Shown here: positions 16,951-21,608 of the stretch, one piece after another
How the letters are laid out: every line of letters begins with the position of its first letter
Numbering within the stretch: the stretch's first letter is position 1
From: an uncultured Nocardioidaceae bacterium
Lineage (GTDB): Bacteria > Actinomycetota > Actinomycetes > Propionibacteriales > Nocardioidaceae
Length of the DNA stretch: 46,098 nt
Direction of reading: 5' to 3'
Assembly: GCA_902805865.1 (NCBI GenBank)
Contig: CADCUK010000043.1
Span: 1-46,098 of the forward strand
Made by a program: the position numbers and the translations under genes
The notes under the pieces: model-generated
The model's database searches: none
What the model was told of the DNA's origin: nothing
What the model saw: the letters and a program-made list of their open reading frames with translations, nothing else

Positions 16951-17898
16951 ATGGTTGCCTCAGGCTCGCTCGCTGCGCCCGCGTGGCTGGATCGGACCCT
17001 CTTCCCGTTCGACAGCAGGTACGTCGACATCGACGGTCACCGCGTCCACTACGTCGACGAGGGCCGAGGTCCGACACTGCTCCTGCTGCACGGGAACCCG
17101 ACCTGGTCCTTCGCCTACCGGGACGTCATCAGGGAGCTGTCGTCGGAGTTCCGCTGCGTGGCGCTCGACTACCCCGGCTTCGGGCTGTCCGAAGCCGCGG
17201 ACGGGTACGGCTACCGACCCGCTGAGCATGCCGGGGTGACGGCACGGTTCATCGAGTCGCTCGACCTGGACGACGTCATCGTCATGCTCCATGACTGGGG
17301 CGGACCGATCGGCGTGGCCGCTGCAGCCTCCGCTCGGGAGCGCATCCGTGGCCTCGTCGTCGGCAACACCTGGGCCTGGCCGGTCAACGGCGACCTGCAC
17401 TTCGAGGTCTTCTCCCGCACCATGGGAGGAGCCGTCGGCCGCGAGCTGATCCGCCGGCTGAACCTCTTCGTCAACCTGACGATCCCTGCAGGCCATCGCC
17501 GGCGTCGCATCAGCGGCCACGAGCTCCAGCACTACCAACGGCCGATGGCAACCAGGGAGCGCCGCAACGCGACCGCGGTGCTGCCCCGAGCGATCATCGC
17601 CGATCGCGGCTTCCTGGAGTCGGTGGCCGCGGACCTCGAGCTGCTCCGGGACCTGCCGTCCCTCCTGCTGTGGGCTGATGGGGATCCGGCGTTCCGGGAC
17701 CGCGAACGGCGTCGCTGGCAGGACCTCCTGCCGAACCGCATCGACGTCACGATCGCCGGGGCCGGCCACTTCGTGCAGTCGGACGCCCCTCAGGACGTCG
17801 CTGACGCCATCCACGCCTGGTGGGCCACGGTTGAACCCATCGCGAAACGGCAACGATCAGTGGACACCCACGCACCGATCCAGGGAGAGAACGCATGA
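16951..17898 (+). CDS. alpha/beta hydrolase, haloalkane dehalogenase-like
   Basis: LLLHGNPTWSFAYR oxyanion region; nucleophile elbow VIVMLHDWGGPIG; LLWADGDPAFRD acid; GAGHFVQSDAPQDVADAI catalytic His. Confidence 0.85.
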   Translation: MVASGSLAAPAWLDRTLFPFDSRYVDIDGHRVHYVDEGRGPTLLLLHGNPTWSFAYRDVIRELSSEFRCVALDYPGFGLSEAADGYGYRPAEHAGVTARFIESLDLDDVIVMLHDWGGPIGVAAAASARERIRGLVVGNTWAWPVNGDLHFEVFSRTMGGAVGRELIRRLNLFVNLTIPAGHRRRRISGHELQHYQRPMATRERRNATAVLPRAIIADRGFLESVAADLELLRDLPSLLLWADGDPAFRDRERRRWQDLLPNRIDVTIAGAGHFVQSDAPQDVADAIHAWWATVEPIAKRQRSVDTHAPIQGENA

Positions 17899-18512
17899 CC
17901 GACGTCAATGTCTCAGTCATCTACTACTCGGCCAGCGGCACCACGCACGAGATGGCACAACGGCTGGCGCAGGCAGCCGAGAAGGCCGGCGCGGAGGTCC
18001 GGCTCCGGCATGTCGCGGAGCTGGCGCCCCAGGAGGTCATCGAGCAGAACGGTGACTGGGCACAGCATCGCCAGCTCGTCGGGGACGAGCCGGTCGCGAC
18101 GGCAGACGACGTGGTCTGGGCGGACGTGGTGCTGTTCGGCTCCCCCACCCGGTTCGGCAACATCGCTAGCCAGCTGAAGCAGTTCATCGACACCCTCGGC
18201 CCCCAGTGGGGCGAAGGGCTGCTCGCCGACAAGGTCTACGCCGGCTTCACCTCCACCCAGACCACCCACGGTGGCCAGGAGTCGACGCTTCTCGCCCTCT
18301 ACAACGTGATCTACCACTTCGGTGGCCTCATCGTGCCTCCGGGCTACACCGACCCGGTCAAGTTCGCCGACGGCAACCCGTACGGCGTCAGCAAGGTCAC
18401 CGGCCCGGACAACGACGCCCCGCTCGAGGACCAGGACATGCATGCGCTCGACCACATGGCCGAAAGATGCGTCGACGTCGCTCGGCGTTTCAAAGCGGGA
18501 AGCCAGGAGTAG
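17895..18512 (+). CDS. wrbA: NAD(P)H:quinone oxidoreductase, type IV (WrbA)
   Basis: Flavodoxin fold IYYSASGTTHEMAQRLAQAAEKAGAEVRLRHVAELAP; VLFGSPTRFGNIASQLKQFIDTLGPQW; FTSTQTTHGGQE. Confidence 0.93.
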   Translation: MTDVNVSVIYYSASGTTHEMAQRLAQAAEKAGAEVRLRHVAELAPQEVIEQNGDWAQHRQLVGDEPVATADDVVWADVVLFGSPTRFGNIASQLKQFIDTLGPQWGEGLLADKVYAGFTSTQTTHGGQESTLLALYNVIYHFGGLIVPPGYTDPVKFADGNPYGVSKVTGPDNDAPLEDQDMHALDHMAERCVDVARRFKAGSQE

Positions 18513-18527: not shown

Positions 18528-18554
18528 GGTGTGACCTGAGTCACTCACGGGTAT
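18528..18554 (+). promoter_or_regulatory. SigF/SigB-type promoter candidate GGTGT-N16-GGGTAT
   Basis: GGTGT 18528-18532, spacer 16, GGGTAT 18549-18554; same layout as 19318-19344. Confidence 0.6.
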
Positions 18555-18570
18555 CAGTTCCGTCGAAGAA

Positions 18571-18632
18571 GCGCATCTGGAGGGATGCGCCGAAGCAGGA
18601 ACTGAAGTGCGGAAACCTGGGAGGGATCGCAC
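18571..18632 (+). promoter_or_regulatory. structured 5' leader, copy 1
   Basis: Hairpin GCGCATC-TGGAGG-GATGCGC (18571-18590), 16-nt linker, GTGCG...CGCAC stem (18607-18632) enclosing SD GGGAGGG; start ATG 18634. Confidence 0.6.
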
Positions 18633-18644
18633 CATGTTGCCGAC
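18606..18644 (+). repeat. direct repeat copy 1: AGTGCGGAAACCTGGGAGGGATCGCACCATGTTGCCGAC
   Basis: Near-identical to 19399-19436 (one substitution, one indel). Confidence 0.85.
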
Positions 18645-19302
18645 AATCGCTTGGCCGAAGGCCGACGAGATCAAGGACCACTGGGCCTGGCGGCCCGAGT
18701 GGACACCCCACCGGCCGAGGCTGCTGTGGTACCTCACGTTCGAAGGGGCCCCCGACGTACGCGCGGCTGCGGCCCCTCCGGGGGACGTCCTCCGGGCCGC
18801 AGGGGCCGATGTCGTACCACCGGAGTGGCTGCACCTCACGATGAACCATGTGGGGTTCGCCGACGAGCTCGACGAACGGGCCGTGCGAGCCTCGGCCGAC
18901 GAGGTCGGGCGCAGGCTCCGGGACGAGGAGCCGTTCGAGCTCACCCTCGGCCCCGTCCACCAGCTGTCCGACGCCGTTGTGCTCGAGGCCGGCCCCGCCG
19001 AGCCCTTGCAGAAGCTGCGCGGCACGGTGGTCGGGGCCATGGCCCACACCGGCATGGCCGAGCCGGACGACATCGACGAGGTCTTCTGGCCGCACGTGAG
19101 CCTCTGCTACCTGAACTCCCGGACCGATCGCGCGCGGGTCGGAGAGATGGTGCGGACCGCGGACCACAGCACGGTCAGCGTGCGCTGCGACCGGCTGTTC
19201 CAGGTCCTCGTCACCCGGACCGGCGCTCACTACCGCTGGCAGGTCCTGGAGGACGTCAAGCTCGGCACCGACCGGACCCGGAGCAAGTACGCCGACCGGT
19301 AG
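18634..19302 (+). CDS. 2'-5' RNA ligase family / 2H phosphoesterase
   Basis: Two HxS/T motifs: EWLHLTMNHVG and FWPHVSLCYLN; N-terminus MLPTIAWPKADEIKDHW matches the repeat element's MLPT. Confidence 0.8.
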   Translation: MLPTIAWPKADEIKDHWAWRPEWTPHRPRLLWYLTFEGAPDVRAAAAPPGDVLRAAGADVVPPEWLHLTMNHVGFADELDERAVRASADEVGRRLRDEEPFELTLGPVHQLSDAVVLEAGPAEPLQKLRGTVVGAMAHTGMAEPDDIDEVFWPHVSLCYLNSRTDRARVGEMVRTADHSTVSVRCDRLFQVLVTRTGAHYRWQVLEDVKLGTDRTRSKYADR

Positions 19303-19317
19303 CCGCCACGGTCGCCG

Positions 19318-19344
19318 GGTGTGACCCGGATCGCCCCTGGGTAG
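19318..19344 (+). promoter_or_regulatory. SigF/SigB-type promoter candidate GGTGT-N16-GGGTAG
   Basis: GGTGT 19318-19322, spacer 16, GGGTAG 19339-19344. Confidence 0.55.
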
Positions 19345-19362
19345 GCCTTCCAGGAGAGGACT

Positions 19363-19424
19363 CGCGCCCGAACCAGGGCGTGGAGGAGCAGTAGCACCGT
19401 GCGGACACCTGGGAGGGATCGCAC
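19363..19424 (+). promoter_or_regulatory. structured 5' leader, copy 2
   Basis: Hairpin CGCGCCC-GAACCA-GGGCGTG (19363-19382), 16-nt linker, GTGCG...CGCAC stem (19399-19424) enclosing SD GGGAGGG. Confidence 0.6.
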
Positions 19425-19436
19425 ATGTTGCCGACC
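19399..19436 (+). repeat. direct repeat copy 2: GTGCGGACACCTGGGAGGGATCGCACATGTTGCCGACC
   Basis: Near-identical to 18606-18644. Confidence 0.85.
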
Positions 19437-19496
19437 GCTGATTGGCCAGACCGCACCCCGGCACCAGTCGGACAGGAAGCTTGGCGTGCGCACTGA
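19425..19496 (+). CDS. putative upstream leader peptide MLPTADWPDRTPAPVGQEAWRAH
   Basis: ATG 7 nt after SD GGGAGGG; TGA 19494-19496 abuts the gpgS start region; N-terminus parallels MLPTIAWP of the 2H gene. Confidence 0.4.
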   Translation: MLPTADWPDRTPAPVGQEAWRAH

Positions 19497-20469
19497 CGTG
19501 GAGTGGTGGTTGGACACCCGGATGTCGGCAGGCGCGGTCTGGGACCGGGAGCGCCTCGTCGCCGCCAAGGGCCCTACGACCGTGAGCGTGGTCCTGCCTG
19601 CGCGCAACGAGGCAGCCACCGTGGGGGACATCGTCCGGGCTGTCCGGCGGGAGCTCATGGAGACGCTGCAGCTCGTCGACGAGGTTCTCGTCGTCGACTC
19701 GGGCTCGGCTGACGGGACGGCCCGCGAAGCCCTTCGTGCCGGTGCGAGGGTCGTCTCGCAGTCGGGCGTGCTGCCGCAGCTGGGCGACCGGCGCGGCAAG
19801 GGCGAAGCCCTGTGGAAGTCCCTCGACGCCACGACCGGTGACGTGGTCGCCTTCGTGGATGCAGACCTGCGCTGCTTCGATCCCCAGTTCGTGGTCGGGT
19901 TGCTCGGTCCGCTCCTGACCGAGCCCTCGGTGCACTTCGTCAAGGGGTTCTACGACCGGCCGCTCGACACCGGGGCCACTCTCCTGCCCGCCGGGGGTGG
20001 ACGGGTCACGGAGATGCTTGCTCGTCCGCTGCTGAACGTGCACTGGCCGGAGCTCGCCGGATTCGTCCAGCCGCTCGCCGGCGAGTACGCCGGACGCCGG
20101 AGCCTCCTGGAGAACATCCCCTTCGTCTCGGGATACGGGGTCGAGATCGCCATGCTGATCGACGTCCTGCAGACCGTCGGGCTCCAGGGCATGGCCCAGG
20201 TCGATCTCGGCAGCCGCCAGCACCGGAACTCCGGTGACCTCGAGCTCGGTCGGATGGCCACCCAGGTGTACCTCGCGCTGCTGTCCCGGTTGGAGCGCTA
20301 CGGCCGGTCCATGAGCGCCGCTGAGGCCAACTACAGCCTGGTGCAGTTCGTGCGCGAGGGTGCTGAGTTCCGCACGGTCGTCTCCGACGTACAGATGAGC
20401 GAACGACCCCCGATCAGCACCCTGCCGGAGTACCTCGCCCGCCGACGACTCGTGCCGGAGCAACGATGA
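19486..20469 (+). CDS. gpgS: glucosyl-3-phosphoglycerate synthase
   Basis: VVLPARNEAATVGDIV, DEVLVVDSGSADGT, RRGKGEALWKSL, VAFVDADLRCFDPQFVVGLLGPLL, VKGFYDRP, GGGRVTEMLARPLLN; start may be GTG 19498. Confidence 0.88.
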   Translation: MRTDVEWWLDTRMSAGAVWDRERLVAAKGPTTVSVVLPARNEAATVGDIVRAVRRELMETLQLVDEVLVVDSGSADGTAREALRAGARVVSQSGVLPQLGDRRGKGEALWKSLDATTGDVVAFVDADLRCFDPQFVVGLLGPLLTEPSVHFVKGFYDRPLDTGATLLPAGGGRVTEMLARPLLNVHWPELAGFVQPLAGEYAGRRSLLENIPFVSGYGVEIAMLIDVLQTVGLQGMAQVDLGSRQHRNSGDLELGRMATQVYLALLSRLERYGRSMSAAEANYSLVQFVREGAEFRTVVSDVQMSERPPISTLPEYLARRRLVPEQR

Positions 20470-21608
20470 GCCTGACCGTGCTGATGAACGCCGGGCCTTG
20501 GCTGCCGGTCCCGCCCCACGGGTACGGCGGCATCGAGAACGTCATCGCGACGCTGGTCCCCGAGCTCCGCCGACTCGGTGTGAAGGTCGTGCTGGCCACG
20601 GTCCCCCAGAGCAGTTTGACGGTCGACGGCCGCGTGCACACGGTGGAACGCCCGATGTTCGAGTCCGTGGCTGCGCCGTACAACCAGGTGTGCGGCGTGA
20701 CGCTTGCCCACATGCACACGCTGGTGCGCGCGCTCCAGGACGGATTGGAGGTGGACGTCGTCCATGATCACCTCGAGGTGGTCGGCCCCGCTGTGCTGGC
20801 AGCGATGGGCCACGACGCGCCTCCCTCCCTGCAGACGCTCCACTGGGACCTCGCCAAGCACGCGGACTTCTACTCCACGTTCGACGGCCGCGGCCGGGTG
20901 CGTTTCGCGGCGGTCTCCCAGTCCCAGCTCGACCGGGCACCCGCCAACCTGCGCCGACAGGCCGCCGGCGTGGTCCCTCTCGCGGTCCCGGCGCCGCCGG
21001 AGCTGGGCGCACCCCGAGGTGAACACGTCGTCTCCCTCGCCCGGATCACCGCCGACAAGGGGATCGACGTCGCGGCTCGTGTGTGCCGAAGGGCCGGCGT
21101 GCCGCTGGTCCTGGCGGGGCCGGTCGCGGGTGTGAACGACCCCGAAGAGCTCGAACGCCGGCTGACCGACGGCGACGAACGCCTCGTCGGGCACCCGGAC
21201 GTGCTGTTCTTCCAGCGCGAGGTGGCGCCTTGGGTCGATGGTGAGCTGGTCAGCTGGGTCGGAGGGGTGGAGGGCGAGGAGAAAGAGCTGCTGCTGCAGA
21301 CCGCACGCGCACTGGTCACCCCCATCCGGTGGGCGGAGCCGGGTGGCACAGCGGTCGTCGAGGCGTTGGTGCGTGGGGTCCCGGTCGTCGGCACCCCGCG
21401 GGGCTGCCTCCCCTCTCTCGTGCAGCACGGGGTCACGGGTTTCCTGGCCGACGAGGAGGACGAGCTGGTGCGCTGCCTCGGCAGGCTGGACGAGCTGGAC
21501 CCCGAGGCCTGCCGATCCGCAGCGGCGCCGTGGACGCCGCGGGCGATGGCGATGAGCTACCTGAACCTGTACGACCGGCTGCTCCACGGCGTAGGAGCAG
21601 CCGCGTGA
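20466..21608 (+). CDS. glycosyltransferase family 4
   Basis: GYGGIENVIATLVPELRRLGVKV and C-terminal TPIRWAEPGGTAVVEALVRGVPVVGTPRG; ATGA overlap with gpgS. Confidence 0.85.
   Translation: MSLTVLMNAGPWLPVPPHGYGGIENVIATLVPELRRLGVKVVLATVPQSSLTVDGRVHTVERPMFESVAAPYNQVCGVTLAHMHTLVRALQDGLEVDVVHDHLEVVGPAVLAAMGHDAPPSLQTLHWDLAKHADFYSTFDGRGRVRFAAVSQSQLDRAPANLRRQAAGVVPLAVPAPPELGAPRGEHVVSLARITADKGIDVAARVCRRAGVPLVLAGPVAGVNDPEELERRLTDGDERLVGHPDVLFFQREVAPWVDGELVSWVGGVEGEEKELLLQTARALVTPIRWAEPGGTAVVEALVRGVPVVGTPRGCLPSLVQHGVTGFLADEEDELVRCLGRLDELDPEACRSAAAPWTPRAMAMSYLNLYDRLLHGVGAAA

Follow-up and report, generated by a model that had tools for sequence, protein, structure and literature searches.

The start region of a 2H phosphoesterase gene, made up of a composite promoter of sigma-B and CRP type, a leader with a hairpin and a module of Shine-Dalgarno (SD) sequence and start codon, appears to have an old, diverged duplicate between this gene and gpgS. 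Judging from the sequence, we give this reading a probability of about 0.6. Duplication of a composite stress promoter together with its initiation region accounts for most of what was noticed at these two sites of the window, by which we mean the whole stretch of 46,098 nucleotides analysed. The data beneath it are the sequence itself, the homology of the copies, the conservation of palindrome and promoter across genomes, and the positions of the starts. The features concerned are these:

18529..18554, + strand: copy 1 promoter, with -35-like GTGTGA (18529-18534), a 14-nt spacer and -10-like GGGTAT (18549-18554); fits the sigma-B-type consensus
18530..18545, no strand: CRP-family-like palindrome of copy 1, TGTGACCTGAGTCACT, 9/10, with a counterpart before 2H in loci L118 and L006
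18571..18590, + strand: leader hairpin of copy 1 (GCGCATC/GATGCGC), 7 bp, 6-nt loop
18607..18645, + strand: translation-initiation core of copy 1, an inverted repeat GTGCGG..CGCAC around the SD GGGAGGG (18619-18625), with the 2H start codon
18634..19302, + strand: 2H phosphoesterase gene (2_5_RNA_ligase2, PF13563)
19319..19344, + strand: copy 2 promoter, with GTGTGA (19319-19324), a 14-nt spacer and GGGTAG (19339-19344)
19320..19335, no strand: degenerate CRP-family-like palindrome of copy 2, TGTGACCCGGATCGCC, 8/10, with a weak right half-site
19363..19382, + strand: leader hairpin of copy 2 (CGCGCCC/GGGCGTG, one G-U), 7 bp, 6-nt loop
19399..19436, + strand: translation-initiation core of copy 2, with SD GGGAGGG (19411-19417) and ATG at 19425
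19425..19496, + strand: upstream ORF (uORF) of 23 codons (MLPTADWPDRTPAPVGQEAWRAH), opened by the ATG of copy 2, its stop overlapping the gpgS start
19486..20469, + strand: gpgS, glucosyl-3-phosphoglycerate synthase (NF010496, 423.9 bits against a cut-off of 262), GTG start at 19486
20466..21608, + strand: GT4-family glycosyltransferase gene, its start overlapping the gpgS stop

The gene-start module is present twice on the + strand, about 790 bp apart (790-792). In copy 1 the module extends from GGTGTGACC (18528) as far as ATGTTGCCGAC (18644), with the start of the 2H gene at its end; copy 2, whose GGTGTGACC is at 19318, runs to 19435 and lies upstream of gpgS. GGGTA is found at 18549 and 19339. 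Both copies have the extended -35 region GGTGTGACCYG, followed by the core after 79 and 81 nt, respectively, and this shared block with its near-equal spacing argues for homology of the whole module. In the core, 25 of 26 nucleotides are identical (18607-18632 versus 19399-19424) before (C)ATGTTGCCGAC follows; the full 39 nt differ by one internal substitution and one indel. Even with as many as 3 mismatches permitted, none of 100 shuffles gave a match to the core. Between the -10 element and the core the two leaders resemble each other at chance level (p=0.14 versus shuffles), hence the conserved blocks stand out, and copies that keep -35, -10, core and start in such surroundings are either old or fast-diverging. 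Past the start codon, similarity between the uORF and 2H is also at chance level (p=0.18), so the end of the duplicate can be traced only to about 12-24 nt. The description in the earlier note of two homologous promoter-leader elements 790 bp apart holds in sequence, coordinates and spacings, including the 7-bp hairpins with 6-nt loops placed exactly 16 nt before the core at both copies. Absent from that account were the palindrome TGTGA-N6-TCACA, the conservation of the promoter before 2H genes of other genomes and the short ORF of copy 2.

A near-identical core beside saturated flanks, in copies only 792 nt apart, could also result if the 39 nt had recently passed from one promoter to the other, by a short duplication or by gene conversion, the core itself being unselected. 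We think this unlikely, though it deserves some weight. The identity of GGTGTGACCYG and the spacing of 79/81 nt speak against it as signs of homology along the module, and what is conserved falls on functional elements, those of the promoter, the SD and the start. Still, the near-identity of the core, which extends to bases beyond SD and start codon, exceeds what an SD needs and may be due to gene conversion or to selection acting on RNA.

The promoter elements point to a general-stress sigma factor. The sigma-B-type consensus of Streptomyces coelicolor is GTTTAA-N12-14-GGG(A/T)A(A/T) (PMC8346170), and both copies have a GNNT-like -35 and a GGGTA-like -10 at a spacing within 12-14 nt. The genome encodes a sigma factor of the sigma-B/F/G family (TIGR02980, 299.9 bits; curated cut-off 234.35), and sigma-B-type promoters also stand upstream of gpgS in four other loci (L014, L015, L016, L114). 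Scans for sigma-70 promoters and for intrinsic terminators found none. The suggestion that the two neighbouring genes have a stress-type promoter in common is supported by the fit of GTGTGA-N14-GGGTA to the consensus, from which we infer that the promoter of the module is of sigma-B type.

A CRP-type palindrome, TGTGA-N6-TCACA, overlaps the promoter, its left half lying in the -35 hexamer. Among 26 distinct 2H genes, three have upstream a palindrome matching at no fewer than 9 of 10 positions: those of the window (copy 1, 9/10), L118 (9/10) and L006 (10/10). Relative to the start codon it is at -104 in the window, -105 in L118 and -100 in L006, and in all three GGGTA or GGGTGA follows after 2-3 nt. 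The chance of at least three such palindromes among 26 upstream regions is about 3e-4, with position left out of the count. Since the 2H proteins of L118 and L006 are only 36-39% identical to that of the window, the site seems to be conserved across long distances. In 1.04 Mb of loci, sites that match at 8 or more of the 10 positions and have GGGTA no more than 5 nt away were found only at the two window copies and upstream of 2H in L118. The site in L006 (genome G058) is the perfect CRP consensus TGTGAGCGGGATCACA. A different palindrome, CTGTGA-N4-TCACAG, lies about 96 nt upstream of gpgS in two Actinoplanes-group genomes (L023, L024). Two points count against a composite promoter: the palindrome is present in only 3 of the 26 2H genes, and the right half of copy 2 is weak (8/10 overall). 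In Mycobacterium tuberculosis, sites of CRP (Rv3676) near the transcript start are associated with repression (PMC4117774). By its sequence, the palindrome may be bound by a putative CRP-type protein, which would act as a repressor.

Regarding the starts, the ATG of copy 1 is the genuine start of 2H: the protein of L018 aligns with it from residue 1 and has an equal codon count to the conserved HW. For copy 2 we differ from the earlier note, which assigned its start to gpgS. The ATG at 19425 lies 61 nt upstream of the gpgS GTG (19486), with which the ATG of homologues aligns, and instead opens the out-of-frame uORF of 23 codons. The TGA of the uORF (19494-19496) is inside gpgS, giving an overlap of 11 nt with the gpgS start. 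The stretch 19411-19496 therefore has what a coupled uORF has in sequence terms, an SD of its own and a stop overlapping the downstream start, and the uORF may couple translation to gpgS. GC3 of the uORF is 0.61 against 0.88-0.92 for the genes, and so its peptide is probably not selected. An AGGA 8 nt upstream of the GTG is a possible SD of gpgS itself. We also considered whether the uORF is a remnant of 2H; the first codons are similar (MLPT..WP), yet the alignment beyond the start does not exceed chance. Directly upstream of copy 1, the window has genes for a haloalkane-dehalogenase-like hydrolase and a WrbA-type quinone oxidoreductase (16951-18512), the latter ending 15 nt before the module. 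A second gpgS-like gene, 53% identical, is found elsewhere in the genome (G000:C170:12531-13334).

Where did the copy before gpgS come from? The order 2H-gpgS-GT4 also occurs in L018 and L118, where 2H ends at or near the gpgS start, and no second promoter was found between the two genes in either locus. Most likely, therefore, the copy before gpgS arose by duplication from the promoter and start of 2H. In G058 the palindrome-promoter stands upstream of 2H, yet without a close gpgS (best match 1.8e-5), which suggests that the promoter travels with 2H. Gene order and promoter position taken together, we infer that the module most likely belongs to 2H and was duplicated before gpgS in the lineage of the window; a duplication in the reverse direction, from gpgS to 2H, is possible. 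Selective retention of -35, -10, SD and start would then have kept gpgS under similar control.

The following scheme can be proposed. A general-stress sigma factor would transcribe 2H and, by way of copy 2, gpgS and the GT4 gene, with transcripts expected to start about 7 nt past GGGTA. A CRP-type dimer on the palindrome, centred at about -23 relative to this expected start, would compete with the sigma factor and block it; repressed in this way, the genes would stay low until the signal changes. Copy 2 would supply gpgS-GT4 with an output of its own of the 2H-like kind. Because the right half-site of copy 2 is poor, CRP control of gpgS is perhaps weaker, and because the uORF ends in the gpgS start region, gpgS is probably translated by termination-reinitiation plus its own AGGA. 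If correct, the window would present a promoter whose stress -35 element is at the same time half of a CRP-type palindrome, an uncharacterised 2H phosphoesterase linked to glucosylglycerate synthesis, and an example of an operon-internal gene that possibly gained its own copy of the promoter of its neighbour. The GT4 gene adjoins gpgS, the glucosylglycerate-synthesis gene, in the related loci examined.

A different reading makes the two leaders a cis-regulatory RNA, in which the translation of both genes is controlled by the 5' hairpin together with a GTGCG/CGCAC stem around the SD and an outer stem that contains the start codon, in response to temperature, a protein or a ligand. We regard this as unlikely. 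The core with its single substitution and indel stands amid saturated flanks, and the leader hairpins agree in geometry. When the copy-2 leader is shuffled by dinucleotides, a 7-bp hairpin lies at that distance in 0.1% of the shuffles. Along the window, 0.4% of positions are the end of a hairpin of this kind, or 0.06% if the loop must have exactly 6 nt. The match therefore exceeds chance at p of about 0.001-0.004, a post hoc value for features picked after inspection; pure chance is unlikely. All 7 pairs are kept with 6 of them changed, in a comparison of two copies only. The core stem is predicted to form with a probability above 0.9 in both leaders, leaving the SD only half accessible and the AUG partly paired, and a strong hairpin (CGAGGGACCT..AGGTCCCTCG) is seen in the 2H leader of L006 too. 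Against this, the two copies have the same core stem, which therefore gives no covariation, the folding energy of the core equals that of shuffled sequence (z -0.06 and -0.20), and hairpins vary among the leaders of other 2H and gpgS genes, with no structure or geometry in common. Should the core work at the RNA level, it would represent a new translational regulator of small size.

The searches for relatives of the module weigh against the RNA reading as well. Searched with a covariance model, 345 other genomes of the family and 394 other genomes of the class (partly overlapping sets) yielded no homologue, and the core pattern with 3 mismatches gave nothing new in the own genome, which is 82% complete, and 298 relatives. 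Viral contigs and plasmids gave no match. Rfam, at gathering and permissive thresholds, returned only tRNAs and chance matches, in agreement with the earlier opinion that no established riboswitch consensus is present. Several candidates were rejected: family matches of the covariance model at E 0.004-0.008 (G167, G132) are antisense within a response-regulator gene, one in G007 looks like chance, and a family-wide regulon defined by GGGTA plus CTGGGAGGG yielded about 22 matches against about 14 in a reversed control, with no coherent set. The SD context CTGGGAGGG recurs upstream of the starts of gpgS in L016, 2H in L118 and both window copies. The earlier idea of more genomic copies thus finds no counterpart in these genomes; of a cis-regulatory RNA or dispersed cassette, the duplicated stress promoter finds support, and a dispersed regulatory RNA finds none beyond these two copies.

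A narrower proposal is that the 39-nt SD-enclosing RNA core and the 5' hairpin form a lineage-specific duplicated element of translational control, possibly recognised by a protein or RNA, which would co-regulate 2H and gpgS on top of the CRP/sigma-B promoter; we find this quite unlikely. Very improbable is a DNA operator, GTGCG-N16-CGCAC, acting as a roadblock downstream of the promoter for a putative regulator: the 5-bp inverted repeat is perfect in both copies, but searches of the genome and the family gave no further instance of the core, and its overlap with SD and start already accounts for part of its conservation.

The proposed duplicated composite promoter has parallels in known systems. 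For the uORF, the closest is uPPE2/PPE2 of M. tuberculosis, a documented case of termination-reinitiation (PMC11260477). There too a short out-of-frame ORF with an SD has a stop overlapping the start of the main gene. The window differs in an 11-nt overlap instead of AUGA and in the possible SD of gpgS itself, and no riboswitch was seen. The palindrome TGTGA-N6-TCACA (GTGnnAnnnnnCACA) is that of CRP (Rv3676) sites in M. tuberculosis (PMC4117774, PMC4005916), whereas the window sites are predicted and copy 2 has a degenerate right half. With the sigma-B-type promoters of S. coelicolor (PMC8346170) the window shares the -35 and -10 hexamers, the 14-nt spacer and a place upstream of genes that are likely stress-related; unlike them, its predicted -35 is embedded in a CRP-like palindrome.
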